The notes below the pieces were generated by a model that had not been told where the DNA came from, did no database searches, and was given only the letters and a program-made list of their open reading frames with translations. Source: Streptomyces xanthii (GTDB lineage: Bacteria > Actinomycetota > Actinomycetes > Streptomycetales > Streptomycetaceae). From it: 64,000 nt of DNA. The stretch lies in assembly GCF_014621695.1 (NCBI RefSeq), contig NZ_CP061281.1, forward strand, positions 434,001 to 498,000, in the 5' to 3' direction. Both the position numbers and the translations under genes were made by a program. Of the stretch, positions 28,747 to 44,410 are shown piece after piece. The first letter of the stretch is position 1; each line of letters opens with the position of its first letter.

Positions 28747-28831
28747 GCTCGCTCCGTGACGTCCGGCAGGAATGTCAGTGCCCTCCCGTAGTCTTCCCGG
28801 CACCGCTCACCGACCGGGAGGATCAAGAGAG

Positions 28832-30390: not shown

Positions 30391-31776
30391 TCAGCCGCCG
30401 CGCCGGACCCGGGCCGCCTTGCGGGCCTCGGCGAGCTTGCGGGCCTCGCTGCTCTTGCGGGACGGCTTGGCACCGGAGGCGCTCTTGGTGTCCTTGCTGG
30501 TGCCGATGCCTCGGAACGGGGCGTTCTGGTTCTTGGGGCGCGTCGACGGCCCGCCGTCGAGAGGCGTTCCGGAGGGGACCCGGGCGCCGGTGATCCGGCT
30601 CAGCTCCGCCTCGCCGGACCGCACCTTGGTGACCTTGGCAGTGACGTCGGCGTCCGCCATGACCTGGCTCGTCTCGCGGCGCTGCCCGGAGAGGGCGAGC
30701 GTCACGACGGTGCCGGTGCGGCCGGCCCGGGCGGTGCGGCCCGCGCGGTGCAGGTAGTCCTTGGGATCGGTGGCCGGGTCGACGTTGACCACGAGGTCCA
30801 GGTCGTCCACGTGCAGGCCGCGCGCGGCGACGTTCGTCGCCACCAGCGCGGTGACCTGCCCGTTCTTGAACCGGGCCAGGGTCGCGCTGCGCTGCGGCTG
30901 GGACTTCCCGCTGTGCAGGGCGGCGGCGGGCACGCCGCTGGCCCGCAGATGCCGGGTGAGCTGGTCGACGCCGTGCTTGGTGTCCAGGAACAGCAGGACG
31001 CGGCCGTCGCGGGCGGCGATCTCCGTGGCGACGGACCAGCGGTCCGGGCCGTGCACGACGAAGACGTGGTGCGCGATCCCGGAGACCGCGTTCGACGAGG
31101 GGTCCACGGAGTGCACGGCGGGGTCGCGCAGATAGCCGCGCACCAGCTGGTCGACGTCACCGTCGAGGGTGGCCGAGAACAGCATCCGCTGCCCGTCGCG
31201 CCGCACCTGGTCGAGGATCTCGGTGACCTGCGGCAGGAATCCCATGTCGCACATCTGGTCGGCCTCGTCCAGGACCGTGATGCGGACGCGGCCGAGACGG
31301 CAGCCCTTGCGCTCGATCAGGTCGTGCAGACGCCCCGGGGTGGCGACGACGATCTCGGCGCCGTCCCGCAGCGCGGCGGCCTGCCGGCCGACGGACACGC
31401 CGCCCACCACGGTGGCGAGCCGCAGCTTCAGGGCGTCCGCGTAGGGGGTGAGCACCTCGCCGACCTGCTGCGCGAGCTCCCTGGTGGGCACGAGGACGAG
31501 CGCGAGGGGTTCCTTCGGCTGGGCGCGCCGGCCGGCCGTGCGGGCCAGCAGACCGAGGCCGAAGGCGAGCGTCTTGCCGGAGCCCGTGCGGCCCCGGCCG
31601 AGGACGTCCCGTCCCGCGAGGGCGTTGGGCAGCGTCGCCGCCTGGATGGGGAAGGGCACCTTGACGTCGTGCTCGTCGAGCGTCCGCAGCAGCGCGGCCG
31701 GGAGCCCCAGGTCACTGAAGGACGCGGCGGACTCGTCGTCCTGCCGCCGGGCGTCGGCGCGTGCTGATTCGCTCAC
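30391..31776 (-). CDS. DEAD-box RNA helicase
   Basis: A 461-residue ATP-dependent RNA helicase with both RecA-like domains. Motifs in order: Q-motif FSDLGLPAALLRTL, Walker A GRGRTGSGKT, PTRELAQQV, TPGRLHDLI, DEAD in VLDEADQM, SAT in LFSATLDGD, and HRAGRTARAGRTG. A basic, Lys/Arg/Ser-rich tail of about 70 residues probably binds RNA. The start is GTG 31776 with GGAGGAAGG (31783-31791), replacing a longer open frame. RhlE/CsdA-like roles in RNA unwinding or cold adaptation are typical; the partner RNA is not known. Confidence 0.95.
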   Translation of the reverse strand: MSESARADARRQDDESAASFSDLGLPAALLRTLDEHDVKVPFPIQAATLPNALAGRDVLGRGRTGSGKTLAFGLGLLARTAGRRAQPKEPLALVLVPTRELAQQVGEVLTPYADALKLRLATVVGGVSVGRQAAALRDGAEIVVATPGRLHDLIERKGCRLGRVRITVLDEADQMCDMGFLPQVTEILDQVRRDGQRMLFSATLDGDVDQLVRGYLRDPAVHSVDPSSNAVSGIAHHVFVVHGPDRWSVATEIAARDGRVLLFLDTKHGVDQLTRHLRASGVPAAALHSGKSQPQRSATLARFKNGQVTALVATNVAARGLHVDDLDLVVNVDPATDPKDYLHRAGRTARAGRTGTVVTLALSGQRRETSQVMADADVTAKVTKVRSGEAELSRITGARVPSGTPLDGGPSTRPKNQNAPFRGIGTSKDTKSASGAKPSRKSSEARKLAEARKAARVRRGG

Positions 31777-31958
31777 TGAGAGCCTTCCTCCGAAGGGGAC
31801 CGTACCGACGTACCGGGGAAGGCGCGGCGGGGACGCGGCCGCCGGCCGGAGCCCCCGTACGGAGCGGCGGCGCGGCGAGGCCACAAACGCACAAGGCTAG
31901 CACGGGAGGTCGGTCCGGCCCTCGGTGATCAGTGCCCACGGGTGCGGGGGCGATCACG

Positions 31959-32034: not shown

Positions 32035-33696
32035 TCAGGCGGGCTCGTGCGCGTGCACCGTGCGGACGGCGTCGACGACGGCCCCGCGGTGCACGAGGTC
32101 GATGGCCGCGCGGACCCTCGGGTACATGACGACGTCCTGCGTGAGGTGGTCGACGGGCCGGCCGTCGGCGGAGCGGGTCGAGCGCAGCATGCCGAGGACC
32201 GCCCGGCTCGCGGAGGACAGCACCGACGGGTCGGCGTCCTGCTCGGCGAGGCGCAGTTCGAGCGCCTGCGCGGCCATGAGGAGCTCGATGCCGATGACGG
32301 CCTCGATGTTGGCGACGACCTGCCGGGCGTGCCGGCCGGCGTTGTTCGCCATCGAGACGTGGTCCTCCTGGTTCGCGCAGGTCGGGATGGAGTCGACGCT
32401 GTCGGGGTGGGCCAGCGTCTTGCAGTCCGACACCAGGGCCGCCGCGAGGTACTGCGGCAGCATGTAGCCGCAGTCCATGCCGACCTTCTCGCTGGCGACG
32501 AGCATGTCCGGAAGCCCCCGGTTGAGCGAGCCGTCGTCGAGGCGGAACAGCCGGCGCTCGGCGATGCTGCCGATCTCGGTGACGGCGATGGAGAGGAAGT
32601 CCGCCGCGAAGGCCAGGTACTCGGCGTGGAAGTTGCCGCCGGAGACGGCCTTCAGGGAGCGGCCGGCGGGCAGGTCCGGGAAGACCAGCGGGTTGTCGGT
32701 GGCCGCGTTGATCTCGGTCTCGACGATGCCGTGCACGAAGCGCAGGGTGTCGCGGACGGGGCCGAGGACCTGCGGGGTGCAGCGCAGCGAGTAGGCGTCC
32801 TGGGGCGGCCTGCGGGTCGGGTCGCAGTCCACGTCGCCGTCGATCAGGCCGCTGTCGCCGAGCAGCTGCCGGATGCGGGCGGCGGACTCGATCTGCCCCT
32901 GGTGGCCGCGGGCCTCGTGGATCTGCGGGAGGAACGCGTCGCCGAAGCCCATCAGGGCCTCGATGGACATCGCGGCGGTGATCTCGGCGGTGGCGAGCAG
33001 GTTCTCCGCGTCGGCGACGGCGAGGGCGACCTGCGCGGTGGAGAAGGACGTGCCGTTGGTGAGGGCGAGACCCTCCTTGGCGCGCAGGGTGATCCGCTCG
33101 ATCCCGGCGTGCTTCATGGCGGCGACCCCGCTCATGAGTTCGCCGTCCCAGAACGCCTCGCCACTGTCGATCTCTGCGTCCTCGCCGGCCGGGCGGGACA
33201 GCACGATCGCCAGGTGGGCCAGCGGGATGAGGTCGCCGCTGGCGCCGAGCGAGCCGTACTCGGGGACGGCCGGGTGGACGCCCGCGGAGAGCATCCGGGC
33301 GAGGGTCTCGGGCAGTTCGGAGCGGACGGCCGAGTAGCCGCGGGTGAGGCTCGCGGCGCGGATCAGCATGGCGGCGCGGACGACCTCGTGGTCGAGGTGG
33401 CGGCCCACGCCGCTGGCGTTGGAGACGATCAGGCGGCGGGACAGTTCGGCGGCGTCCTCGACGGTGTCGAAGGCCTGGCGTCCCGCGAGGGAGCCGAAGC
33501 CGGTGTTGATGCTGTAGATGGGCTCGACGGGCTTTCCGGCGCGCATGTCCTCGATGATCGAGCCGACCCACCGTTCGCCGGCGCGCATCGCCTCGACGGC
33601 CGCGTCGCCGACGACGACCTCCCGGCCGCCGCGGGCGACGGCGACGAGGTCGTCGAGCGAGACGGGCGCCTCGCCCAGGGTCACGGGCTCGGTCAT
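32035..33696 (-). CDS. MIO-containing aromatic amino-acid ammonia-lyase (HutH/PAL family), unusual selectivity residue
   Basis: A 553-residue lyase with the MIO-forming Ala152-Ser153-Gly154 in GSLGASGDLIPLAH. Other active-site residues by family comparison: Tyr61 (YSINTGFG), Asn214 (ALTNGTS), Gln299/Tyr302/Arg305 (QDAYSLR), Phe356 (GNFHAEY), Glu444 (ANQEDHVSM), the last being histidase-like. The selectivity pair, normally Ser-His in histidases, Phe-Leu in PAL and His-Leu in TAL, is Ser92-Asn93 (VSNASGVG). The reaction is elimination of ammonia from an aromatic or related L-amino acid to give a cinnamate-type acid. It lies among P450, reductase and importer genes, not hut genes, so I avoid the symbol hutH. 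AGGAGG precedes ATG 33696. Confidence 0.88.
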   Translation of the reverse strand: MTEPVTLGEAPVSLDDLVAVARGGREVVVGDAAVEAMRAGERWVGSIIEDMRAGKPVEPIYSINTGFGSLAGRQAFDTVEDAAELSRRLIVSNASGVGRHLDHEVVRAAMLIRAASLTRGYSAVRSELPETLARMLSAGVHPAVPEYGSLGASGDLIPLAHLAIVLSRPAGEDAEIDSGEAFWDGELMSGVAAMKHAGIERITLRAKEGLALTNGTSFSTAQVALAVADAENLLATAEITAAMSIEALMGFGDAFLPQIHEARGHQGQIESAARIRQLLGDSGLIDGDVDCDPTRRPPQDAYSLRCTPQVLGPVRDTLRFVHGIVETEINAATDNPLVFPDLPAGRSLKAVSGGNFHAEYLAFAADFLSIAVTEIGSIAERRLFRLDDGSLNRGLPDMLVASEKVGMDCGYMLPQYLAAALVSDCKTLAHPDSVDSIPTCANQEDHVSMANNAGRHARQVVANIEAVIGIELLMAAQALELRLAEQDADPSVLSSASRAVLGMLRSTRSADGRPVDHLTQDVVMYPRVRAAIDLVHRGAVVDAVRTVHAHEPA

Positions 33697-33793
33697 GGGT
33701 TTCCTCCTGATGTCGGTTCCGTACCTCGTCGCACGCGACGGTGTCGCGGCACTTCTCATGATGGGCAGCCGCGACGGCGGCGGCCCGCGGCCC

Positions 33794-34747
33794 TCACACG
33801 TCCAGGACCAGGCGCTCGCCGCGGCAGCGCGAGACGCAGATCATCATCGTGTCGCCCGCGGCGCGTTCGTCCTCGGAGAGCACGCGGTCGCGGTGGTCCG
33901 GTTCGCCCTCGAGGACGCCGGTCTCGCAGGTCCCGCACACGCCTTCGCGGCAGGAGCTGAGCGACCGCACCCCGGCGGCGGACAGGGCGTCGAGGATCGA
34001 CTCGTCCGCGCCCACGGTGATGTCGCGGCCGTCGCGGGTGACCACGGTGAACGCGTGGTCGTCCTCGCGTCCCGCGGCGTCGGGGGCGGCGGTGAAGTGC
34101 TCCAGGACGAGCCGGCTGCCGGGGCGGCTCCCGGCGTAGCCCTCGACGGCGGCGAGCAGACCGGCCGGTCCGCACGCGTACAGGTCGGCGTGCCCGGCTC
34201 CCAGCCGGTCGAGTGCGGCGGCGACGTCGATGACGCCGGACTCGTCGTCACGGTGGAGGACGACCTTGTCGCCGTACTTGCCCAGCTCGTCCGCGAAGGC
34301 CATGGAGGTCGCCGAGCGCCCCAGGTAGAGCAGGGTCCACCGCTTACCCGCGGCCTCCAGCGCGGCGGCCATCGGCAGGAGCGGCGTGATCCCGATGCCG
34401 CCGGCGACGAGGACGTGCCGCTCGGCCGCGAGGTCCAGCGGGAAGGTGTTGCGGGGCGTGCTCACCAGCAGGTGGTCCCCCACCTTGACCCGGTCGTGGA
34501 GGTGGGCGGAACCGCCGCGTCCGTCGGGTTCGCGCAGCACCGCGATCCGCCAGCGCGCCTCGTCGGGGCCGGACGAGAGGGAGTACTGCCGGACGAGATC
34601 GCGGGAGAGCACGACGTCGATGTGGGACCCCGGGGTCCACGCCGGGAGGGCCCGGCCGTCGCGCGACGCCAGGACGAAGGAAACGACTCCCGCCGCCTCC
34701 CGCGTCACCTCCTCGACCTTGACGGTCACGAACTGCTGCGCCGGCAT
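33794..34747 (-). CDS. VanB/phthalate-dioxygenase-reductase type oxidoreductase (flavin + 2Fe-2S)
   Basis: A 317-residue reductase: N-terminal flavin-binding barrel (RQYSLSSGPDEA, residues about 1-105), NAD(P)H domain (HVLVAGGIGITPLLPMAAAL; LYACGPAGLL) and C-terminal plant-type [2Fe-2S] ferredoxin with Cys266, Cys271, Cys274 and Cys304 (SCREGVCGTC...MICVS). It moves electrons from NAD(P)H to an oxygenase. It is divergent from the P450 gene, whose redox partner it presumably is; no separate ferredoxin gene is nearby. The ammonia-lyase gene follows 97 bases downstream on the same strand. Confidence 0.94.
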   Translation of the reverse strand: MPAQQFVTVKVEEVTREAAGVVSFVLASRDGRALPAWTPGSHIDVVLSRDLVRQYSLSSGPDEARWRIAVLREPDGRGGSAHLHDRVKVGDHLLVSTPRNTFPLDLAAERHVLVAGGIGITPLLPMAAALEAAGKRWTLLYLGRSATSMAFADELGKYGDKVVLHRDDESGVIDVAAALDRLGAGHADLYACGPAGLLAAVEGYAGSRPGSRLVLEHFTAAPDAAGREDDHAFTVVTRDGRDITVGADESILDALSAAGVRSLSSCREGVCGTCETGVLEGEPDHRDRVLSEDERAAGDTMMICVSRCRGERLVLDV

Positions 34748-34845
34748 GGCTCCTCCGTCTCCGCACTCGCCGTCCGCGGGGCGCGTCGTGCGGCGCCCCG
34801 ATCACCCGCATCGTGCTGACGTCGGCCGGGGTGCGGCAACGGTGG

Positions 34846-34862
34846 TTCTCAGCAGGTGATAA
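34846..34862. promoter_or_regulatory. Candidate IclR operator in the reductase/P450 divergent promoter
   Basis: TTCTCA (34846-34851), spacer GCAGG, TGATAA (34857-34862). It matches the perfect TTCTCA-N5-TGAGAA palindrome in the IclR gene's own leader (37018-37034) with one mismatch and the same 5-base spacing. It lies between the reductase start (34747) and the P450 start (34936). Confidence 0.6.
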
Positions 34863-34935
34863 CGGCCGTGTCCCGGGTGTCCGCCGCGCGCCTACGGTTC
34901 GGCACGTCCACCCGTACCGACCCGAAGGAGGCCCG

Positions 34936-36141
34936 ATGACCGGGACCGCCGGCCACGTCGTCACGTCCGTCCTGGACGACCCGTACGACGACGCCAACCT
35001 GACCGATCCGTATCCGCTGTTCGCCCGCCTGCGCGACGCCGGGCCCACGGTGTGGCTGGAGAAGTACGGGGTGCACGCCTTCACGCGGTTCGAGGAGTGC
35101 CGGCGGATCCTGGCCGACCACGAGACGTTCATCTCCGGGGCCGGGGTCGGACCGCGCAACTATCACCGGCAGCCGCCGTGGCGCCCCGCCGGGATCCTGG
35201 ACTCGGACCCGCCGCTGCACACCCCGCTGCGCACGGCGATGGCCGGGGTGATCTCGCCGCGCAACGTGCGGGCGCTGCGGGCCGCGTTCCAGGAGTTCGC
35301 GGTGCGGCTCGTGGACCGGATCCTGGACGAGCGGGAGTTCGACGCGATCACGGACATGGCCGAACTGTTCCCGATCGAGGTGTTCGGCAACGCGGTCGGC
35401 ATCCCCCGCGAGGGCCGCGCCGAGAACCTGCTGCCGCACGGCGCGATGAACTTCTCCGCGTTCGGCCCCGAGGACGCCCGCTACGACGCCTACTTCGCCG
35501 CCGGCGAGGGGACCGTGGAGTGGGTGATGAACAACTGCGCCCGCGAGAACCTGTCTCCGGACGGCCTCGGCGCCAAGATCTGGGAGTACGCCGACCAGGG
35601 CGTGATCAGCCCGGACGAGGCCACGCGCCTGGTGCGTGCCCTGCTGTCGGCGGGCCTGGACACGACGGTGCTGTCCATCGGCAACACCATGAAGTGCCTG
35701 GTCACCAACCCCTCCGAGTGGGCGGCGCTGCACGCGAACCCGTCCCTCGCGCGGTTCGCGATCGACGAGGCGCTGCGCTTCGAGTCCCCGTTCCAGTCGT
35801 TCTTCCGTACGACCGCCCGCGAGACGACGGTCGACGGCGTGCGCCTGGAGGAGGACGCGAAGGTCGCGCTGTTCATGGGCGCCGCCAACCGGGACCCGCG
35901 CCGGTTCGGCGAGGACGCCGACGCGTACCGGATCGAGCGGGACGCGTCCGGGCACCTGGCGTTCGGCATCGGCATCCACCAGTGCGTGGGGCAGCCGATC
36001 TCCCGCCTGGAGATGGACGTGCTGTTCAGCGAGCTGGCGCGGCGGGTCCGCACGGTGGAGCTCACGGGTGAGCCGGTGCCGTTCCTGCACAACACGCTGC
36101 GGGGCTGGAAGAGCCTGCCGGTGCGGATCACCCCGGCCTGA
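34936..36141 (+). CDS. Cytochrome P450, CYP199-like (para-substituted aromatic acid type)
   Basis: A 401-residue P450: I-helix AGLDTT (239-244), ExxR at Glu278-Arg281 in EALRFESP, haem loop FGIGIHQCVGQ with Cys350 as ligand. From memory, many segments resemble CYP199A4 of Rhodopseudomonas (LRDAGP, LLSAGLDTTV, RFESP-QSFFRTT, ANRDPRR, NTLRG-SLPV-TPA), an enzyme that O-demethylates 4-methoxybenzoate and hydroxylates cinnamates. In the region preceding the B-C loop (GAGVGPRN), it differs from that family, so substrate may differ. AAGGAG precedes ATG 34936. Divergent from its likely reductase; convergent with iclR 17 bases away. Confidence 0.92.
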   Translation: MTGTAGHVVTSVLDDPYDDANLTDPYPLFARLRDAGPTVWLEKYGVHAFTRFEECRRILADHETFISGAGVGPRNYHRQPPWRPAGILDSDPPLHTPLRTAMAGVISPRNVRALRAAFQEFAVRLVDRILDEREFDAITDMAELFPIEVFGNAVGIPREGRAENLLPHGAMNFSAFGPEDARYDAYFAAGEGTVEWVMNNCARENLSPDGLGAKIWEYADQGVISPDEATRLVRALLSAGLDTTVLSIGNTMKCLVTNPSEWAALHANPSLARFAIDEALRFESPFQSFFRTTARETTVDGVRLEEDAKVALFMGAANRDPRRFGEDADAYRIERDASGHLAFGIGIHQCVGQPISRLEMDVLFSELARRVRTVELTGEPVPFLHNTLRGWKSLPVRITPA

Positions 36142-36158
36142 GGCCGCGCGGCCGCCGT

Positions 36159-36956
36159 TCAGCCGGTGGGCGGCGGCCCGGCGCGGTGCTCCAGGATCTC
36201 GCCGAGCCGCAGCCCGGCCGCCTGGAGCCGGCCGCGGGCGTGCCGGCGCCAGTCCGAGCCGCACCGGTTCTCCGGTCCGGCCACGGTCAGCGCGCACAGC
36301 ACCTCTCCCCCGGCGACGACCGGGACCGCCACCGCGACGGCGCCCTCGTTGAGTTCGCCGCGGGTGACGAGGAAGCCGCGCCGGCGGATCTGCTCGATCT
36401 CGCCGGCGAGCTGGGCGCGTCCCAGGGTGCGGGGCGTGATGCTGCGCAGCGGCTGCTGGAGGACGTGGTCGATGACGGTGCGCGGGGCGTGGGCGAGGAG
36501 GACGCGCTGGCCGGCTCCCGCGTAGAGCGGCAGGAGTTGGTTGATGCGGAAGGCCATGCGCAGCGGCTGGGCGGACTGGGTCTGGCGCAGGCACATGGCC
36601 TGGGTGCCGACCCGGACGGTGAGGACGGCGGTCTCGCCGGTGGTCTCCGTGAGTTCCTCGAGCACGCCCTGGCCCAGTTCGACGAGGCGGGTGTGGGTGA
36701 GGTGCTGGCCGGAGATCTCCAGGAGGCGCCAGCCGGGAGCGTAGGTGCCGCCGCGCTCCTCCACGAGTTCCATGTCGCGCAGGGTGCGCAGGTACCGGTA
36801 GACGGTGCTGACGGGGATGCCGACGTCGGCGGCGATCTTCTCCACCCGGGCCTCGCCCGACTCGGCGACGGTGATCAGTACGTTGAGTCCGCGCTGGAAG
36901 GAGCCCGCCGACGACGTGCCGGTACGCCCCTCGCGCTCGGGGACGGATGGTGCCAC
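36159..36956 (-). CDS. IclR-family transcriptional regulator
   Basis: A 265-residue regulator: winged helix (residues about 15-75, FQRGLNVLITVAESGEARVE, VSTVYRYLRTLRDMELVEE) and the IclR effector domain (LRQTQSAQPLRMAFRINQLL; FLVTRGELNEGAVAVAVPVV). Such proteins often sense aromatic acids. The start is GTG 36956 with GGGAGG upstream; the open frame runs further to 37013. A perfect palindrome at 37018-37034 lies about 62 bases upstream and a near copy lies in the P450/reductase promoter, which makes these its probable targets. Confidence 0.93.
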   Translation of the reverse strand: MAPSVPEREGRTGTSSAGSFQRGLNVLITVAESGEARVEKIAADVGIPVSTVYRYLRTLRDMELVEERGGTYAPGWRLLEISGQHLTHTRLVELGQGVLEELTETTGETAVLTVRVGTQAMCLRQTQSAQPLRMAFRINQLLPLYAGAGQRVLLAHAPRTVIDHVLQQPLRSITPRTLGRAQLAGEIEQIRRRGFLVTRGELNEGAVAVAVPVVAGGEVLCALTVAGPENRCGSDWRRHARGRLQAAGLRLGEILEHRAGPPPTG

Positions 36957-37017
36957 GGAGCCTCCCTCGGCCTGGGACCACGACCGTGCCGCACGGCAGG
37001 GCTCCGCGCACACCCCC

Positions 37018-37045
37018 TTCTCACACTCTGAGAATCACCCTCTCA
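37018..37045. promoter_or_regulatory. Candidate IclR autoregulatory operator
   Basis: TTCTCA (37018-37023)-CACTC-TGAGAA (37029-37034) is a perfect inverted repeat. A further TCTCA (37041-37045) makes a second, overlapping inverted repeat with TGAGA. It lies between iclR and the SDR gene. Confidence 0.6.
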
Positions 37046-37117
37046 GGGCTCGGCTCCCGGCCCTCGGCGCTCTTGGTGCGGTGGCCCGGCGACCGTAGGC
37101 CGCCGGCGGGGTGGCGG

Positions 37118-37131
37118 GGAGCGCTTGTTCC
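37118..37131. promoter_or_regulatory. Weak ACCAAGC-type site before the SDR gene
   Basis: GGAGCGCTTGTTCC reads on the other strand as GGAACAAGCGCTCC, sharing 8 of 10 core bases with the CAAGCGCTTG site at 43464-43473. It lies about 100 bases before the SDR start and may be a weaker site for the TetR regulator. Confidence 0.35.
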
Positions 37132-37227
37132 GGTGACCGGGACGGGGACCGGGCGCGGGGGCGGGTTCCGCTGCGAGCATCACGCCTCACGCGGCAGACG
37201 GCCGTCGAAGGGTACGGAGGGCACGGG

Positions 37228-37965
37228 ATGAGCGCACGGGCGGACGGCAAGGTGGTCGTGGTGACGGGCGGCGCGCGCGGCATGGGCGCGGCGTTCGCGC
37301 GGCGCCTGGTCGCGGAGGGCGCCAAGGTGGTGGTCGGCGACGTCCTGGTGAAGGAGGGCGAGGCCCTCGCGGCGGAACTGGGCGCCGGGAGCGCCCTGTT
37401 CACCGAGCTGGACGTGACGAGCGAGGCTTCGTGGAACGCGGCGGTGGGCCGCGCGGAGGAGGCGTTCGGCGGGGTGACGGGGCTGGTGAACAACGCGGGC
37501 GTCGTGCACCGCTGCCCCATGGAGGAGCTGTCCGAGGCGGACTACCGGCGGGTGATCGACGTCAACGAGGTCGGTGTCTTCCTCGGCATGAAGGCGGTCC
37601 TGCCGTCGATGAGGGCGGCCGGCGGCGGCTCGATCGTCAACATCTCCTCGCTGGGCGGCGTCATCGGCTTCCCGTACATCATCAGTTACGTGGCCTCGAA
37701 GTGGGCCGTGCGCGGGATGACGAAGGCGGCGGCGCAGGAGTTCGCGCCGTACGGAATCCGCGTCAACTCGGTGCATCCCGGCATGGTGGCGACGGAGATG
37801 ACGGCGCACTCGGAGCGCTCGCACGAGTCGGTGAAGCACCAGCCGATCCAGCGCCTGGCCGCGCCGGAGGAGGTCGCCGGCATGGTGCTCTACCTGCTGT
37901 CGGACGAGGCGAGTTACTCGACGGGCGCGGAGTTCCTCGTGGACGGCGGATACGCCAGCCAGTGA
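37228..37965 (+). CDS. Short-chain dehydrogenase/reductase
   Basis: A 245-residue classical SDR: cofactor motif TGGARGMG (13-20), NNAG (88-91), catalytic Ser141 (NISS), Tyr154 and Lys158 (YVASK), and a C-terminal FLVDGGYASQ. The absence of an Arg after the first strand and the Asp in VVGDVL near residue 38 suggest NAD(H) preference. It may oxidise a hydroxyacyl or alcohol intermediate of the local pathway. GGAGG precedes ATG 37228. It converges with the TetR gene, 12 bases apart. Confidence 0.94.
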   Translation: MSARADGKVVVVTGGARGMGAAFARRLVAEGAKVVVGDVLVKEGEALAAELGAGSALFTELDVTSEASWNAAVGRAEEAFGGVTGLVNNAGVVHRCPMEELSEADYRRVIDVNEVGVFLGMKAVLPSMRAAGGGSIVNISSLGGVIGFPYIISYVASKWAVRGMTKAAAQEFAPYGIRVNSVHPGMVATEMTAHSERSHESVKHQPIQRLAAPEEVAGMVLYLLSDEASYSTGAEFLVDGGYASQ

Positions 37966-37977
37966 GCGGCCGTGCCC

Positions 37978-38619
37978 CTACGCGGTGTGGAGGCCTCCGT
38001 GCAGGACCAGGAGGAACTGCACCGCGACCGCCTCGTGCTTGTACTTGCCGCGCGGGCGGTACCAGCGGACGGTGGACCAGATCGCGTCGCGGATGAAGCG
38101 GTAGGTGAGGTGGACGTCGACGTCGGGGCGGAACACCCCTGACTTCTGGCCCGCCTTGAGCACCGTGAGCCAGATCTTCTCGATCTTCTTGCCGGTCCGG
38201 CCGACGTACTCGAACCCGGGCTGACGGCTGAACATGGTGAGTTCGTTCTGGTAGAGCGCCACGGCGACGGGCGAGGCGTGGATGGCCGCGAAGGAGTGGC
38301 GGACGAGCTCGTCGAGGACCTGCTCCGGGTTCTCCCCCTGCTTCTCGATCGCGGTGAAGCGTTCGAGGAGCGGGTCGAGGAACTCGCGCAGGATCTCGTC
38401 GAGCATCTCCTCCTTGGAGCTGAAGTGGTGGTAGAGGCTGCCCGACAGGATGCCGGCCTCGTCGGCGATGTCCCGGACGGTCGTCTGGGCGTAGCCGCGC
38501 GTGGCGAACAGTTCCGCGGCGATGCCGAGGAGTTCGCTCCGCCGCTGTGAGCCGCTGTGGCCGCCGGCCCTGGATCCGCGCCGTGTGGTCGCCGGCTGCC
38601 CGGACCGCCCTGCCGCCAT
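37978..38619 (-). CDS. TetR-family regulator, KstR2-like
   Basis: A 213-residue TetR protein with HTH TTVRDIADEAGILSGSLYHH near residue 45. The C-terminal ligand domain closely resembles, from memory, mycobacterial KstR2 (GVFRPDVDVHLTYRFIRDA then VRWYRP), a repressor released by a CoA thioester. KstR2's published operator core, CAAGNGCTTG, is also present here as CAAGCGCTTG (43464-43473). ATG 38619 has AGGAGG (38630-38635) upstream. Its own leader carries a related site at 38654-38667. It probably controls the importer operon and adjacent SDR genes. Confidence 0.9.
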   Translation of the reverse strand: MAAGRSGQPATTRRGSRAGGHSGSQRRSELLGIAAELFATRGYAQTTVRDIADEAGILSGSLYHHFSSKEEMLDEILREFLDPLLERFTAIEKQGENPEQVLDELVRHSFAAIHASPVAVALYQNELTMFSRQPGFEYVGRTGKKIEKIWLTVLKAGQKSGVFRPDVDVHLTYRFIRDAIWSTVRWYRPRGKYKHEAVAVQFLLVLHGGLHTA

Positions 38620-38653
38620 GTCGTCCGTCCCTCCTGGCAGGAGAGGGTCCCCC

Positions 38654-38667
38654 ACCAAGCAATTGCT
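38654..38667. promoter_or_regulatory. ACCAAGC-type operator in the TetR leader
   Basis: ACCAAGCAATTGCT, 35 bases upstream of the TetR start; AAGCAATTGCT is palindromic apart from the end base. It shares ACCAAGC and TG-T with three sites before the ABC importer, so it is a candidate autoregulatory operator. Confidence 0.55.
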
Positions 38668-38725
38668 CGATCTGTCACTACTACCCCCGGTAAGCGCAGC
38701 TTGCCACACCGGGGCGCGGGCATGC

Positions 38726-38761
38726 CCCGGCCCCCGCCGACGGTGCTCGGCGGGGGCCGGG
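38726..38761 (-). terminator. Terminator of the branched-chain-type ABC operon
   Basis: CCCGGCCCCCGCCGA (38726-38740) and TCGGCGGGGGCCGGG (38747-38761) form a perfect 15-bp stem with a 6-base loop, directly after the last importer gene and before the separately promoted TetR gene. Confidence 0.88.
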
Positions 38762-38784
38762 ACGGGGCGGCGCGGGCCGCGGTC

Positions 38785-39543
38785 TCAGGAGCCCGGAGCG
38801 GGTGCTCTCGGTGCCGGGGTCCGGCCGAAGTAGGCGTCCTGGAGGTCGTCCACCTCATCGGCGGGCGCGGACAGGACGACGCGGCCCATGTCGAGGACGG
38901 CCACGTGGTCGGCGACGGCGACGGACGCCTCCACGGCCTGTTCGACGAGCAGGATGCCGATGCCGGTCTCCTTCAGCCGGCCGACGCGTTCCATGACCTC
39001 GTTGACGATCACGGGGGCCAGGCCGCCGGAGGGCTCGTCGAGCATCAGGAGCTCGGGCCCGGCCATGAGGGCCTGCGCGATGGCGAGCATCTGCTGCTGG
39101 CCGCCGGACATGGTGCCGGCGAGCAGCGCCCGCTTGTCGCCGAGGACGGGGAAGAGCTCGTACATCCGCTCCGCCTCCTCGCGCAGGGCGGGCCGTTTGA
39201 GGCGGCGGGTGTAGCCGCCGAGCAGCAGGTTCTGCTCGACGGTGAGGCCGTGGAAGACGCGCTTGCCCTCCTGGACGTAGGCCATGCCCCGTTTCACGCG
39301 GGTGTGCGCGGCGGCCTTCGTGATGTCCCGGCCGGCGAGTTCCACGCGGCCGGCGGACGCCTTGTTGAGGCCGGAGACAGCGCGGAGCGTGGTGGTCTTG
39401 CCCGCGCCGTTGCGTCCGAGCAGGACGGTGAGCTGTCCCGGCCAGACGTCGAAGGAGACGTCCCAGACGACGCGCAGGTCGCCGTAGCCGGTGCCGAGTC
39501 CGCGCACCCGCAGGATCGGTTCGCCGGGCTGTTGTGCCGTCAT
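38785..39543 (-). CDS. Branched-chain-type ABC importer, LivF-like ATPase
   Basis: A 252-residue ATPase: Walker A GRNGAGKTT, LivF hallmark GMAYVQEGKRVFHGLTVEQN, signature MSGGQQQMLAIAQAL, Walker B LLMLDEPSGGLAP. It energises uptake with the fused LivM-LivG protein and LivH. The ATG at 39543 overlaps the fusion gene's stop by four bases (ATGA). Solute is unknown; systems of this class carry branched amino acids, amides, urea and aromatic acids. Confidence 0.95.
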   Translation of the reverse strand: MTAQQPGEPILRVRGLGTGYGDLRVVWDVSFDVWPGQLTVLLGRNGAGKTTTLRAVSGLNKASAGRVELAGRDITKAAAHTRVKRGMAYVQEGKRVFHGLTVEQNLLLGGYTRRLKRPALREEAERMYELFPVLGDKRALLAGTMSGGQQQMLAIAQALMAGPELLMLDEPSGGLAPVIVNEVMERVGRLKETGIGILLVEQAVEASVAVADHVAVLDMGRVVLSAPADEVDDLQDAYFGRTPAPRAPAPGS

Positions 39544-41354
39544 GAGGTCTCCCCCGAGGTGGTGGCGGGTTCCACTCCGAGGTACTCGCTGAGGACGCGC
39601 GGGTCGCGCTCGATCTCCTCCGGCGGGCCGGTGGTGATGAGCTGTCCGTGGGCGAGGACGGCGATGTCGTCGGCGAGGGAGAGGACCAGCCGGAAGTTGT
39701 GTTCGACGAGGACGACGGTGCCGCCCGCGTCCCGGATCTGCCGGATCAGCGAGGCGAGCCGCTCGACCTCGTGCTCGTCGAGGCCGGACGCCGCCTCGTC
39801 GAGGAGGAGCACGCCCGGCGCGTCGATCAGGGCGCGGGCCACCTCGAGGAGCCGGCGCATGCCCAGGGGCAGCGAGACGGCCTCGGTGTCGCGCAGATGG
39901 CCGAGGCCCACCAGCGCGAGCATCCGCTCCGCCTCCTCCAGGTCCCCGCGGCGCACCCGGCGGAACCGGGGAGTGCGCAGCACGGCCGCGAGGACGGAGG
40001 CACGGTGTCCCGTGTAGCGGCCCGACGCGACGGCTTCGAGGACGGTGACGCCGGCGGGGATGTTCGGCGTCTGGAAGGTGCGGGCGACTCCGGCGCGCGC
40101 GACCCCGTCGGGCGGGAGCCCGTGCAGGGCGGTGCCGTCGAGGGTGATCTCGCCCGCGTCGGTGCGGTAGAAGCCGCACACCATGTTCAGGAGCGTGGTC
40201 TTGCCGGAGCCGTTGGGTCCGATGAGCGCGGTCACGGTGCCGGGGCGTGCGTCGAGCGAGACGTCCTTCAGGGCCTGGTTGCCGCCGAACGCCTTGGAGA
40301 CGTTGCGGATCGTGAGGGTCGCGCCCTGGAACGGGGGGATCCGCGGTGCGGGTCCCTCCTCCGTCGTGACGGCGCTGTCGGCCGGTGTCGCCTTCCGGTC
40401 GAGGCGGGCGACGAGGACGCGGAAGACGCGGGCGAGGCCGCCGGTGAGGAGGACGCCGCCGATGACCAGGAAGGCGCCGGTGAAGACGAGGGCGTACTGC
40501 TGGAAGCCCGAGGACTGGTTGGGCCCGAACTGCATGACGGCGGCGCCGACCAGAGCTCCGTACACGCTGGCGGAGCCGCCGAGGATGGAGGCGGAAAGGA
40601 CGGTGGTGGCGAAGGCGAAGGAGAACGCCTCCGGGGACACGTACAGGTCGAGGTTGGCGAAGAGCGCACCGGCGAGGCCCGCCGGGATGGCGCCGAGCGC
40701 GTACGCGAGGAGCTTCATCCGGAAGACCGAGATGCCGGTGGAGGCGGCGAGGACGGGGCTCTGTCTGAGGACGCGCAGGGCGATGCCGTGCCGGGAGGTC
40801 ACGATGTTGCGCAGCACGGCGAACCAGAGGATCGCGACCACGGCGATGACGAGGTAGAAGCCCGTCCCGTCGAGCAGGGAGCCGAACAGGGTGGGGCTCT
40901 GGATGCCGCTCAGGCCGTTCCGGCCGCCGGTCGCGCCGGGGAAGATCGCGAGCACGTCGGGGACGAGCAGGACGAGGAAGAACGAGGTCATCGCGAGGGA
41001 CCAACTCCCCAGCCGGAGGCCGGGGATGCCGGTGACGACGCCGACCGCGAGCGCGCCGAGGCCGGCGAGCAGCAGCTGGAGCAGGATGTCGGTGTGGCCC
41101 GCTTTGGAGAGCAGGCCGGCGACGTAGGCGCCGGAGGCGTACATCGCGGCCTGTCCCAGGGCGAGTTCACCGGCGTACCCGAGGCTGAGGTTGAGGCCGC
41201 TCACCACGAGGGCGAGGATGAGGGTGAGCTGGACCTGGCGGGTCGTGGAGAAGTCCAGGCCCGCCCAGGGGAGGACGAGGACCATCAGTCCGAGCGTCAG
41301 GGCCGGTACCCAGCCCGGCACCGCGCGAACGGTTCGCCACAGGGCCATGGTCAC
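39540..41354 (-). CDS. Branched-chain-type ABC importer, LivM permease fused to LivG ATPase
   Basis: A 604-residue fusion. Residues 1 to about 320 are a LivM permease (ALVVSGLNLSLGYAGELALG, GLRLGSWSLAMTSFFLVLLV, LAYALGAIPAGLAGALFAN). A linker of about 25 residues follows, then a LivG ATPase from about 345: Walker A GPNGSGKTT near 377, FQTPNIPAGVTVLEAV, Walker B LLLDEAASGLD. The signature loop reads LPLGMRRLLEVARAL instead of LSGGQ-type, a deviation seen in some Liv ATPases. GTG 41354 overlaps the LivH stop by four bases; an ATG two codons on is the alternative. Confidence 0.93.
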   Translation of the reverse strand: MTMALWRTVRAVPGWVPALTLGLMVLVLPWAGLDFSTTRQVQLTLILALVVSGLNLSLGYAGELALGQAAMYASGAYVAGLLSKAGHTDILLQLLLAGLGALAVGVVTGIPGLRLGSWSLAMTSFFLVLLVPDVLAIFPGATGGRNGLSGIQSPTLFGSLLDGTGFYLVIAVVAILWFAVLRNIVTSRHGIALRVLRQSPVLAASTGISVFRMKLLAYALGAIPAGLAGALFANLDLYVSPEAFSFAFATTVLSASILGGSASVYGALVGAAVMQFGPNQSSGFQQYALVFTGAFLVIGGVLLTGGLARVFRVLVARLDRKATPADSAVTTEEGPAPRIPPFQGATLTIRNVSKAFGGNQALKDVSLDARPGTVTALIGPNGSGKTTLLNMVCGFYRTDAGEITLDGTALHGLPPDGVARAGVARTFQTPNIPAGVTVLEAVASGRYTGHRASVLAAVLRTPRFRRVRRGDLEEAERMLALVGLGHLRDTEAVSLPLGMRRLLEVARALIDAPGVLLLDEAASGLDEHEVERLASLIRQIRDAGGTVVLVEHNFRLVLSLADDIAVLAHGQLITTGPPEEIERDPRVLSEYLGVEPATTSGETS

Positions 41355-42208
41355 ACCGTCCTTTCCTGGACCCGTACGAAGAGGCCCGCCGGTCGCACCA
41401 GCAAGATGGTGACGAGGATGACGAAGACAGTGATGTTGGCGTAGGCGCCGCCCAGGTAGCGGGCGGCGAGGGCCTCGGCGAGGCCCACGACCAGGCCGCC
41501 GACGAGCGTGCCCTGCATGGAGCCGAACCCGCCGATGGCCAGGACGACGAAGCCCTTGAGGGCGAGGGAGGCGCCCAGCGTGGCCACCGCGAAGGTCTTC
41601 GGGCCGACGAACATGCCGAGTACGCCGGCGACGGCGCCGGAGAACGCGAAGGCGCCGAAGGCGAGCCGGCGGACGTCCACGCCGCGGAGCATCGCCGCCT
41701 CGCGGTCTTCCGACATGCCGAGCAGCGCGAGGCCCACGAGGAAGCGGCGGCTGAGCCGGGTGAGCGCCCACACGAGGAGGACGGCCACGACGACGAGCGC
41801 GATCTCCACCGGGTAGGTCTGGCCGCCGAGCAGCCGCATGACCTCGTTGCCCCCGAAGAACGGGACGTTCAACGGCTGGGTCCCCCACACCAGTTGGGTG
41901 ACTCCGTTGAGGAGGATGGAGACGCCGAGGGTGGTGACAAGGATGTTGTGCGGGTCCTTGACCGGGCGCACCGCGAGGCGTTCCTCGACCGCCGCCAGGG
42001 CGAGGACCGAGGCGACGGCGAGCAGCAGGACGACCGGGACGGACAGCTTCCAGGTGACCAGGCCGGTGTACGTGACGAACGCGCCGACCATGATGAGCTG
42101 GGCCTGGGCGAAGTTGAAGGTCTTCGAGGAGATGAAGACGATGTTGTAGCAGACGGCGACCAGCGCGTAGACCGCTCCGAGGGCCAGTCCGCCCCAGATC
42201 AGCGTCAC
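41351..42208 (-). CDS. Branched-chain-type ABC importer, LivH permease
   Basis: A 285-residue permease with about eight helices, starting GLALGAVYALVAVCYNIVF. The family core FVVLAIGGFGSMQGTLVGGL is near residue 230, and GMSEDREAAMLRGVDVRRL is the ATPase-contact loop. The start GTG 42208 overlaps the binding-protein stop by four bases. With the fused LivM it should form the membrane channel. Confidence 0.94.
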   Translation of the reverse strand: MTLIWGGLALGAVYALVAVCYNIVFISSKTFNFAQAQLIMVGAFVTYTGLVTWKLSVPVVLLLAVASVLALAAVEERLAVRPVKDPHNILVTTLGVSILLNGVTQLVWGTQPLNVPFFGGNEVMRLLGGQTYPVEIALVVVAVLLVWALTRLSRRFLVGLALLGMSEDREAAMLRGVDVRRLAFGAFAFSGAVAGVLGMFVGPKTFAVATLGASLALKGFVVLAIGGFGSMQGTLVGGLVVGLAEALAARYLGGAYANITVFVILVTILLVRPAGLFVRVQERTV

Positions 42209-43410
42209 TGGAACTGCCCGTCCTTGATCTCGGACGGGGCGATGAAGAGGAACACCCCCGCGTCGGCGTTCGGCCGGTGCGCCGTGGCGCTGAAGTGGTA
42301 GTCGTTCAGGATCGCCGTCTTGGCCTTCTTCTGCACGCTCTGCTCCTCGAGCGCTCGGGCGAGTGCCTTCGGGTCGTCGAGCGAGCCGGCCTTCTCGGCG
42401 GCCGCCGCGATGAGGGGCAGCGCGTCGTAGTTGTAGCCGAGGATCAGCGTGGAGCGGATCTTGCCGAGTGACTTCATCGCCGCGACCGCCTCGTTCATGG
42501 CCTTGTCCCCGGCGTCGTACTTGGTGCTCGTGTACACCTGCATCACCAGGTTCTTCACCTGGTCGGTGCCGAGGACCCCGGCGGGTGGCGGCGTGGAGAT
42601 CAGGCCGGTCGCGGAGACCGAGGTGTTGGCGACGACCGGGACGTTCCAGCCGAGCTTCTTCATGCTCTTCAGCAGGTAGCCGACGGGGGCGCCGTAGCCG
42701 TCCATGATCAGGGCGTCGGGGCCGGCGGCGCGGACCGCCTGGAGCTGCGGGGTCATGTCGAGCGCGGCGACGTCGTACTCCTCGCTCTTGACGACCTCGA
42801 TCCCGGCGTCGTCGAAGGCCTTCGTCATCTCGGCGTCGAAGGTCTCCCCGTAGGAGCTGCTGCCGTGGATGATGCCGACCCTCTTGTACCCCTTGTCCTT
42901 GAGGTGGGGGATGAAGCCCTTGGCGTAGTCGGAAGGGCCGGGCGACAGGTCGAAGTTGAGCGGGAAGGCCTTGGGGTCCGAGGAGTCTGCGGTGGGGCCG
43001 ACGTTCATGGACAGGATGTTGTTCTGCTTCAGGATCGGCAGGACGGCGGCCGTGACGGTGGACGGGCCGGAGTCGAGGAACAGGTCCGGCTTCTTGTCGG
43101 AGTTGATCGCCTCACGGAGCTTGGTGACGGCGGTCGTCGGGTCGCCCGCGTCGTCGACGACGGTGACCTCGACCTTGCGGCCGAGTATCCCGCCCGCCGC
43201 GTTGACCACCTTGGCGCCGGCCTTGGCCGAGAGCACCGAGGTCGTCGAGTTGTCCGCGAGGACGCCCTGGGCGCTCAGGCCGCCGGTGACCAAAACGCGA
43301 TAGGGCTCGTCGGCGCTCTTTCCTTCCGTGGCGGAACCGGCCCCGCACCCGGTGAGGGTGAAGGCGACACCCGTGGCCGACGCGATCACCGCAACGATTC
43401 GTCTGTTCAT
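42205..43410 (-). CDS. Branched-chain-type ABC importer, LivJ/AmiC-like binding lipoprotein
   Basis: A 401-residue type 1 periplasmic-binding protein with lipobox LTGC (Cys near residue 22). The fold shows GAKVVNAAGGILGRKVEVTV, VTKLREAINSDKKPDL, YKRVGIIHGSSSYGETF and LILGYNYDALPLIAAA. It is the first gene of the importer operon and defines its solute, which may be an aromatic or amino acid from the pathway nearby (inference). ATG 43410 with AAGGG upstream is preferred over the in-frame TTG at 43416. Confidence 0.93.
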   Translation of the reverse strand: MNRRIVAVIASATGVAFTLTGCGAGSATEGKSADEPYRVLVTGGLSAQGVLADNSTTSVLSAKAGAKVVNAAGGILGRKVEVTVVDDAGDPTTAVTKLREAINSDKKPDLFLDSGPSTVTAAVLPILKQNNILSMNVGPTADSSDPKAFPLNFDLSPGPSDYAKGFIPHLKDKGYKRVGIIHGSSSYGETFDAEMTKAFDDAGIEVVKSEEYDVAALDMTPQLQAVRAAGPDALIMDGYGAPVGYLLKSMKKLGWNVPVVANTSVSATGLISTPPPAGVLGTDQVKNLVMQVYTSTKYDAGDKAMNEAVAAMKSLGKIRSTLILGYNYDALPLIAAAAEKAGSLDDPKALARALEEQSVQKKAKTAILNDYHFSATAHRPNADAGVFLFIAPSEIKDGQFQ

Positions 43411-43461
43411 TTTCAACCCTTATGGAGAGCCGATGGAGAGCCGAGGACACACCGAGACCGA

Positions 43462-43475
43462 ACCAAGCGCTTGTT
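43462..43475. promoter_or_regulatory. TetR (KstR2-like) operator candidate 1
   Basis: ACCAAGCGCTTGTT, containing the perfect palindrome CAAGCGCTTG, 52 bases upstream of the binding-protein start. It matches the published KstR2-type core CAAGNGCTTG. Confidence 0.65.
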
Positions 43476-43511
43476 AGTGCCGCGAAACGTAGCACGGCGA
43501 ATCTCGCACCG

Positions 43512-43525
43512 GTCAAGCATTTGTT
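43512..43525. promoter_or_regulatory. TetR (KstR2-like) operator candidate 2
   Basis: GTCAAGCATTTGTT, 50 bases from site 1 (about five helical turns) in the same importer/SDR divergent promoter region. Confidence 0.5.
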
Positions 43526-43582
43526 TGGTGTTGATTCCGGCCCCTTGACCGGGCTCTCGACGCGCACCTACCGTGATGCACG

Positions 43583-43596
43583 ACCAAGCGTCTGCT
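43583..43596. promoter_or_regulatory. TetR (KstR2-like) operator candidate 3
   Basis: ACCAAGCGTCTGCT, within the longer dyad CAAGCGTCTGCTTG (43585-43598), 40 bases before the second SDR gene. It sits on the SDR side of the divergent promoter. Confidence 0.5.
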
Positions 43597-43636
43597 TGTT
43601 CTGGGGGCGGCGCTCCGAGCACGAGAGGTGGGCGCG

Positions 43637-44410
43637 ATGCGCGACTTCGGGAACAGGGCGGGCGTGGCCGTCGTGTCCGGCGGCTCCGGAGGGATCGGGG
43701 CCGCCGTCTGCCGCGGCCTGGCGGCCGCCGGTTCGGCCGTGGCCCTGACGTACCGGCGCAACAAGGAGCAGGCGGAGGCGGTCGCCGCCGAGCTGGCCTC
43801 CGCCCACGGGGTCCCCGTCACGACGGACCCGCTGGACCTCTCGGACGCGACCGCCACCCGCGACCATCTGGCCTCGGTGGTCTCCCGCTTCGGGGCGGTC
43901 CACACCGTGGTGCACTGCGCGGGCCCGCACGTCCCGATGACACACCTGTCCCGCGTCTCGCCGGAGCGCTGGCGCGAGCAGCTCGACGCGGACGCGTCCG
44001 CCTTCTTCAACCTTCTGCACGCCGCGCTGCCGGCCCTCCGCGAGAGCCGGGGCTCGGTGGTCGCGGTCACGACGGCGGCGACCCGCCGCTATCCGGTGCG
44101 TGACGGCCTGTCAGCGGGGCCGAAGGCGGCGGTGGAGGCGCTGGCCCGCGCGTTCGCCGCCGAGGAGGGCCGGTTCGGGGTGCGGGTGAACTGCGTGGGG
44201 CCCGGGATGCTCACCGACGGGATGGCCGCGCGGCTGATGGACTCCGGCGATCTCGACCAGCGGGCCCTCGACGCCGCGATGGCCAACATCCCGCTGCGCA
44301 CCTTCGGCACCGCCGAGGACATCGCCGAGGCCGTGTGCTTCCTGGCCTCCGACCGTGCGCGCTTCATCACCGGTCAGAAGCTGGACGTCGACGGCGGCTA
44401 CGGAGTCTGA
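43637..44410 (+). CDS. SDR-family protein lacking the catalytic tyrosine
   Basis: A 257-residue SDR with cofactor motif SGGSGGIG (14-21), HCAG (93-96) and a C-terminal KLDVDGGYGV. The active-site Tyr four residues before Lys163 is Ser159 (SAGPK), and the usual Ser is Thr146 (VAVTTAAT). The fold and cofactor site look intact, so it may be an atypical reductase or a non-catalytic binding protein. GAGAGG sets ATG 43637, not GTG 43628. It is divergent from the importer operon under shared ACCAAGC-type sites, so it belongs to the same regulon. Confidence 0.88.
   Translation: MRDFGNRAGVAVVSGGSGGIGAAVCRGLAAAGSAVALTYRRNKEQAEAVAAELASAHGVPVTTDPLDLSDATATRDHLASVVSRFGAVHTVVHCAGPHVPMTHLSRVSPERWREQLDADASAFFNLLHAALPALRESRGSVVAVTTAATRRYPVRDGLSAGPKAAVEALARAFAAEEGRFGVRVNCVGPGMLTDGMAARLMDSGDLDQRALDAAMANIPLRTFGTAEDIAEAVCFLASDRARFITGQKLDVDGGYGV

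Follow-up and report, generated by a model that had tools for sequence, protein, structure and literature searches.

The 64,000-nucleotide stretch of the Streptomyces xanthii genome analysed here (contig NZ_CP061281.1, positions 434,001 to 498,000 of the forward strand; below, the window, in whose coordinates positions are given) contains at 32035–37034 four genes for an ammonia-lyase, a reductase, a cytochrome P450 and an IclR-family regulator, which we propose to constitute an accessory catabolic module for N-methylated histidine. The lyase gene (32035–33693, minus strand) encodes an enzyme of the 4-methylideneimidazole-5-one (MIO) type from a HutH-derived clade (PF00221, 537 bits), the proposed N-methylhistidine ammonia-lyase. 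On the same strand and promoter-proximal to it lies the gene of a phthalate-dioxygenase-reductase-type protein with C-terminal 2Fe-2S domain (33794–34747, minus strand; Fer2 above cut-off), the proposed electron donor of the P450. The P450 gene (34936–36141, plus strand), divergent from both, encodes the proposed N-methylurocanate N-demethylase. The IclR-family gene (36159–36956, minus strand; IclR_C and HTH_IclR above cut-offs; alternative GTG start at 37013) is convergent with the P450 gene and divergent from a short-chain dehydrogenase/reductase gene (SDR1). Two palindromic putative operators are placed in the divergent promoters, TTCTCA-N5-TGATAA (34846–34862) between reductase and P450, and TTCTCA-N5-TGAGAA (37018–37034) between IclR and SDR1, the latter 62 bp away from the start of IclR at 36956 and 194 bp from SDR1.

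Scanning of species genomes with the lyase resulted in 35 loci. Close relatives, at 66–95% identity, make up 33 of them and are the related loci counted below; L033 and L035 (33% and 38% identity) were left out of all counts. Genome-level searches covered 31 genomes, i.e. the own genome and 30 others, with L016, L021 and L030 left out. Lyase, reductase and P450 genes are co-located in 11 of the 33 related loci (L001, L008, L013, L017, L018, L019, L024, L025, L026, L028 and L031), hosted by Streptomyces, Arthrobacter, Leucobacter, a Microbacteriaceae metagenome-assembled genome (MAG), Pimelobacter, Nocardioides and Nakamurella. Nine of these 11 also carry the IclR gene, which is present in the urocanase-type loci L023, L027, L032 and L156 as well. 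LivK, LivH, SDR1, SDR2 and TetR, in turn, had no match in any of the 11 P450 loci at E 1e-10, including L001, whose lyase has 95% identity; the Liv ATPases gave in these loci only weak matches, as any ABC transporter would give, and SDR1 and TetR had no match in any related locus.

The first-pass annotation had read 32035–44410 as one catabolic island with a dedicated importer, and had named conservation of the gene order as a check. Every gene family that it listed was located, and the core of its catabolic module, i.e. the lyase, the CYP199-like P450 with its own reductase, the IclR regulator, and demethylation as the likely chemistry, was retained. The importer, TetR and the two SDR genes were lost as members, since they do not accompany the lyase, and the single 12-kb island gave way to two units. 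The true unit is 32035–37034 with lyase, reductase, P450 and IclR, at the end of which, in the IclR/SDR1 promoter, the operator pattern also ends; the Liv importer, TetR and the SDRs are separate. The lyase clade is rare: at E 1e-180 it was found in one of 396 phylum-wide genomes, the own one only, and among the matches listed (best first) from 295 Streptomyces genomes, all but the own lyase were at most 47% identical.

Against the hutH equivalog model TIGR01225 the lyase scored 525.1 bits, under the cut-off of 539.15, while the broader HutH subfamily model NF006871 was passed (541 versus 524). The protein retains the MIO Ala-Ser-Gly triad and the glutamate typical of histidine ammonia-lyase (HAL; QEDHVSM, Glu414), and it resembles HutH also at the positions of Tyr53, Asn195, Gln277, Tyr280, Arg283, Phe329 and Met382. 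It differs from HutH at two others: 33 of 34 clade lyases have Asn (L015 has Asp) at the position of PpHAL His83, where all 30 HutH proteins fetched have His, and all 34 clade lyases have Tyr at the position of Phe381. These HutH proteins are the better-scoring PF00221 proteins that all 31 lyase-bearing genomes hold besides the lyase (30 of 31 fetched, not that of G317). According to a paper on Geobacillus HAL (PMC11432326), a zinc ion may link His83 with the histidine substrate, which would make His83 a residue beside the imidazole. In a tree of 41 sequences (33 clade lyases and 8 HutH, leaving out L030 and 22 of the 30 HutH), the clade was set apart from HutH with support of 100/99. Plain histidine, which had stood among the compounds proposed for testing, is already covered, because another better-scoring HutH-family protein is present in 31 of 31 genomes, with His at the His83 position in the 30 fetched, and it is probably not the substrate of this lyase. 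A third, more distant PF00221 lyase is encoded in the own genome (G000:C1:226488-227798, 370 bits). In Leucobacter, the lyase is followed by a TAP-like alpha/beta hydrolase (L031:11672-13330 and L018:11151-13307; domain called on the L031 copy), which could free an amino acid from a peptide.

The neighbours of the lyase in other genomes are indicative of its substrate class. A urocanase-family gene accompanies the lyase in 17 of the 33 loci; of these 17, 15 also have a hutI-type and 14 a hutF-type gene. Single representatives of the three linked families pass the NCBIfam hutU, hutI and hutF cut-offs. An allantoate-amidohydrolase-like gene, present in four loci, passes its own NCBIfam cut-off. 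Because the lyase clade sits with hutU-, hutI- and hutF-type genes, an imidazole-ring substrate is suggested, and when the additional HutH in every genome and the changed His83 position are considered as well, a modified histidine would be the simplest substrate. The lyase-linked urocanases form a clade of their own with 46 fixed differences from ordinary HutU (14 versus 29 sequences). Short pieces of 179–384 amino acids (L012, L029, L032) and L125 were left out of the urocanase tree and compared individually; the short pieces of the three loci were 88–91% identical to the divergent clade, and ca. 50% to ordinary HutU.

The P450 and the divergent urocanase exclude each other behind the same lyase. 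A P450 orthologue (58–90% identity) was identified in 12 of the 31 genomes, i.e. the own genome and those of the 11 P450 loci; the best matches elsewhere reached at most 37%. The divergent urocanase was identified in 18 genomes, in 16 of them within the lyase locus (the L032 copy being a fragment at a contig end), once about 27 kb off (L003) and once on a different contig (L007); these last two were assigned from their scores, with position as a further criterion in L003. Together the two were present in none of the 31 genomes, and neither was found in one (L015, a MAG); an overlap of zero has a hypergeometric probability of 9e-8 when relatedness is ignored. An independent plasmid locus in Streptomyces sp. 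NBC_00841 comprised IclR, lyase, divergent urocanase, hutI and hutF, with no P450 match. Ten active-site positions agree between the P450-type (12) and urocanase-type (19) lyases, except for one sequence with a broken frame at Glu414, and therefore both types probably act on the same substrate.

No dedicated methylurocanate hydratase gene lies beside the window lyase; 17 of 33 relatives have a divergent urocanase gene there. All 12 P450-type genomes contain elsewhere a HutI-like gene (35–42% identity to the query; one with an internal stop) and a urocanase, exactly one copy in eight genomes and two matches in four (G000, G295, G310 and G316). Both copies are partial in G310, where one reads as ordinary HutU (83–87% versus 48%) and scores alone do not class the pair. 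In the own genome, the two urocanases are located megabases away from the lyase and score like ordinary urocanases (290 and 288 bits). Since the P450 and the divergent urocanase exclude each other behind the same lyase, the P450 appears to take the place of the dedicated hydratase enzymes, in the simplest case by making ordinary urocanate.

The window P450 shares 46% identity with both CYP199A4 and PbdA. In P450 naming, identity over about 40% defines a family and about 55% a subfamily, which places the protein in the CYP199 family but outside subfamily A. With PbdA/PbdB and CYP199A4, which are p-methoxybenzoate O-demethylases, it shares the family and the arrangement of a P450 with a cognate reductase for demethylation (PMC11530827), whereas the window P450 is linked to an imidazole-type lyase and has lost two of the three carboxylate-binding residues. 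These residues, which contact the benzoate carboxylate, are Arg92, Ser95 and Ser244 in PMC11854964, and Arg84, Ser87 and Ser237, a motif conserved in CYP199A, in PMC11530827. All 12 lyase-linked P450s have Gly for Ser95 and lack one adjacent residue, and they have Ala for Ser244, Phe for Val295 and Asn for Val181; both serines of the Arg-Ser-Ser motif are thus gone in 12 of 12, and the arginine is present in 11 and replaced by Lys in one. With the arginine alone kept, the window P450 is a candidate demethylase of the CYP199 family with a different substrate. CYP199A4 is able to N-demethylate para-substituted benzoates, according to PMC11530827. The best PDB matches of the reductase were the P450 chains 6laa (residues 467–779 of 779 amino acids) and 6kbh (487–785 of 786), whose matched ends are taken to be fused reductase parts, followed by 7ylr and the phthalate dioxygenase reductase 2pia. 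The Arthrobacter genome of L017 has a second P450 copy (60%; L150:10354-11667), which is separated from HutH by 6 kb and lies next to genes for threonine dehydrogenase and glycine C-acetyltransferase.

An N-demethylase releases formaldehyde as product, so the presence of a linked formaldehyde dehydrogenase fits demethylation by the P450. In three of the 11 P450 loci (L024, L026 and L028), an S-(hydroxymethyl)mycothiol dehydrogenase gene (644 bits in L026, cut-off 513) and a metallo-beta-lactamase-fold gene follow the reductase. The linked dehydrogenase is an extra copy in two of the three genomes, and in G318 the only one at E 1e-80. The own genome has two MscR homologues outside the window; a mycothiol formaldehyde dehydrogenase homologue (G000:C1:428979-430058) is located ca. 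4 kb left of the window edge and ca. 36 kb from the lyase.

Alignment of the reductase/P450 promoters from three Streptomyces loci (window, L001 and L008) revealed a common block, TTCTCA-N5-TGA(G/T)AA, which also precedes IclR in the window and in L001. The 8.35 Mb genome has just two exact occurrences of TTCTCAN5TGAKAA, both in divergent promoters of the lyase module, and this whole-genome search gave no exact occurrence near Liv, TetR or SDR2. When up to one mismatch was allowed, 21 sites were obtained in the 626,841 bases of the 33 loci, versus 0–3 for 11 permuted palindromes. The sites span 15 loci, all from Actinomycetota (six P450-type, eight urocanase-type, and the unclassed L030), and each lies no more than about 250 bp from the called start of a lyase, P450 or reductase, IclR, or SBP_bac_3-type amino-acid importer gene. 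The IclR protein is predicted to bind the palindrome.

On this basis, the region 32035–37034 is, with fair confidence, read as a module for the use of an N-methylated histidine, most likely N-tau-methylhistidine (3-methylhistidine). The lyase would remove ammonia from N-methylhistidine to give N-methylurocanate. The P450, with electrons from the adjacent reductase, would then hydroxylate the N-methyl group, which would leave as formaldehyde, and the resulting urocanate would be converted to glutamate by the ordinary HutU, HutI and later enzymes of the genome. The IclR protein would control the reductase-lyase operon, the P450 and itself through TTCTCA-N5-TGA(G/T)AA. In relatives without the P450, the dedicated divergent HutU, HutI and HutF-type enzymes are predicted to work on the still-methylated ring.

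The module may alternatively serve another modified imidazole amino acid, such as anserine-derived N-pi-methylhistidine or a histidine methylated on S or C; the P450 would then take off or oxidise the group before the Hut enzymes act. The position of the methyl or other group is not fixed by the present data, and a representative lyase-linked urocanase scored almost equally on the hutU (622) and S-methylthiourocanate hydratase (616) models. For the same representative, both thio-models are however well under their cut-offs (616 versus 880, and 578 versus 930), and CYP199A enzymes work on para-substituents (PMC11854964 and PMC11530827), a geometry that would suit N-tau better than N-pi, which makes this alternative rather unlikely. 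Hydroxylation by the P450 at the ring or at a remote carbon of a methylhistidine product, opening a route other than urocanate, would agree with a substrate pocket altered relative to CYP199A; such a route is improbable in view of the formaldehyde dehydrogenase linked in three relatives and the dedicated downstream set that is missing exactly where the P450 occurs.

More doubtful still is a second, differently regulated histidine ammonia-lyase, alongside a P450 doing unrelated work under the same regulator. The broad subfamily model is passed and most HAL catalytic residues are kept, but the equivalog cut-off is missed, His83 is changed to Asn in 33 of 34 lyases, every genome has its other HutH-family protein, and neither the 46 fixed changes in the partner urocanase nor its mutual exclusivity with the P450 would be expected. 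The first-pass annotation had proposed that an aromatic acid or amino acid is imported and deaminated and that the ring or an O-methyl group is oxidised, and had listed O-methyltyrosine among the compounds to test. In favour of that model are the CYP199 family of the P450, a reductase that fits a demethylase, and the database names of some relatives, which read 4-methoxybenzoate monooxygenase. The lyase clade sits, however, with urocanase, imidazolonepropionase and formimidoylglutamate-deiminase genes, the glutamate of QEDHVSM is kept, both benzoate-binding serines are lost, and the importer and SDRs are not conserved with the lyase, so that an aromatic acid or (O-methyl)tyrosine is a very improbable substrate.

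Several observations weigh against the methylhistidine module itself, a model in which gene content, conservation, mutual exclusivity, residue changes and operator are observed, and the substrate, the place of its methyl group and the reactions are deduced from them. The P450 has been assigned its substrate indirectly: it has lost the serines that hold benzoate, and an imidazole acrylate is a putative ligand. The formaldehyde genes are linked in one family alone (Nocardioidaceae), with none in the window, and no importer in the window is assigned to the module. The partner label changes four times on the best lyase tree; on well-supported branches there is one independent switch pair and the sign test is without power, so repeated switching between P450 and urocanase partners is weakly indicated. 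No operator was found at up to one mismatch in five of the 11 P450 loci (L017, L024, L025, L026 and L028), nor in nine of the 17 urocanase-type loci, mostly Pseudomonadota. With two mismatches tolerated, operator matches within the window by itself are not exceptional, as 6 of 100 shuffles reach four matches, and the weight of the operator rests on the whole-genome and cross-locus counts. Finally, genes that the model does not need are found near the lyase in various combinations (L013, L017, L028, L032, L027, L003, L005, L009, L010 and others), encoding a HisC-like aminotransferase (16 of 33 loci), a flavin mononucleotide (FMN) lactate-dehydrogenase-like protein (nine) and a GlcD-like protein (nine); these may let the corresponding hydroxy or keto acid enter the pathway.

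The remaining genes of 32035–44410 follow the second operator. SDR1 (37228–37965, plus strand) has the operator region in common with IclR but is not conserved with the lyase, and its membership in the module is doubtful. Its best NCBIfam model was trans-4-hydroxycyclohexanecarboxylate dehydrogenase at 263 bits, under the cut-off of 400, and an alicyclic acid (cyclohexanecarboxylate) as substrate was rejected on this score and on the missing conservation. The TetR regulator gene (37978–38619, minus strand) is judged separate. The importer, described as complete by the first-pass annotation, has indeed all its parts on the minus strand, i.e. livF (38785–39543), a single continuous livM-livG frame for permease and ATPase (39540–41348), livH (41351–42208) and livK (42205–43416), and SDR2 (43637–44410, plus strand) seems to go with it. 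LivK relatives (57–60% identity) were found in three of the 31 lyase genomes, not linked to the lyase, with a 31% match in a fourth; livK had no match at E 1e-40 in the genome of the nearest relative, and at E 1e-120 LivK was found in one of 150 Streptomyces genomes, the own one. SDR2 homologues of 300 or 313 bits are near Liv in L151 and L152, where the Liv neighbours also include other SDRs (both loci), AMP-binding ligases (L152) and an IclR gene (L151). In both, a livMG match of similar length adjoins livK and livH; livF was not scored in L152. The Liv importer with SDR2 is accordingly judged an accessory unit distinct from the lyase module. Elsewhere in the window, a frame of 523 residues with no NCBIfam match (28772–30343) lies upstream of a DEAD-box helicase gene (30391–31884).

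Of known systems, ergothioneine degradation is similar in being a Hut-like pathway for a modified histidine. It was rejected as the route, because the lyase-linked urocanase (one representative) does not reach the thiourocanate-type hydratase models; in the structure database the lyase matched ergothionase 6s7j weakly (156 bits, versus 322 for HAL 7tqr). Bacterial degradation of N-tau-methylhistidine is the subject of a 2022 report cited in the Geobacillus HAL paper (PMC11432326). That pathway reportedly likewise applies Hut-like enzymes to a modified histidine, and the urocanase-type relatives of the lyase resemble its layout, whereas the window module is without a dedicated urocanase and has the P450 and reductase instead. 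The route of Beliaeva, Atac and Seebeck (ACS Chem Biol 2022) reportedly keeps the methyl on the ring and ends in glutamate and N-methylformamide. To our knowledge, bacterial breakdown of N-tau-methylhistidine has been described solely as a hydratase pathway. Among the open-licence papers listed for methylurocanate, methylhistidine catabolism, or CYP199 with urocanate, none showed a P450-based route, and no paper in that collection was found to name both CYP199 and urocan-.

N-tau-methylhistidine is a residue of muscle protein and a marker of its degradation. With confidence slightly above even, the module would represent the first P450-dependent branch of modified-histidine catabolism, in which one lyase clade supplies N-methylurocanate to either of two interchangeable modules under one operator, a methyl-carrying hydratase set or a CYP199-type N-demethylase leading to urocanate. 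If this is true, CYP199-type enzymes would gain N-methylurocanate as a new class of substrate, and these proteins would need names other than the automatic “histidine ammonia-lyase” and “4-methoxybenzoate monooxygenase”. The two modules would then be unrelated solutions to one metabolic block, swapped behind the same lyase and operator.

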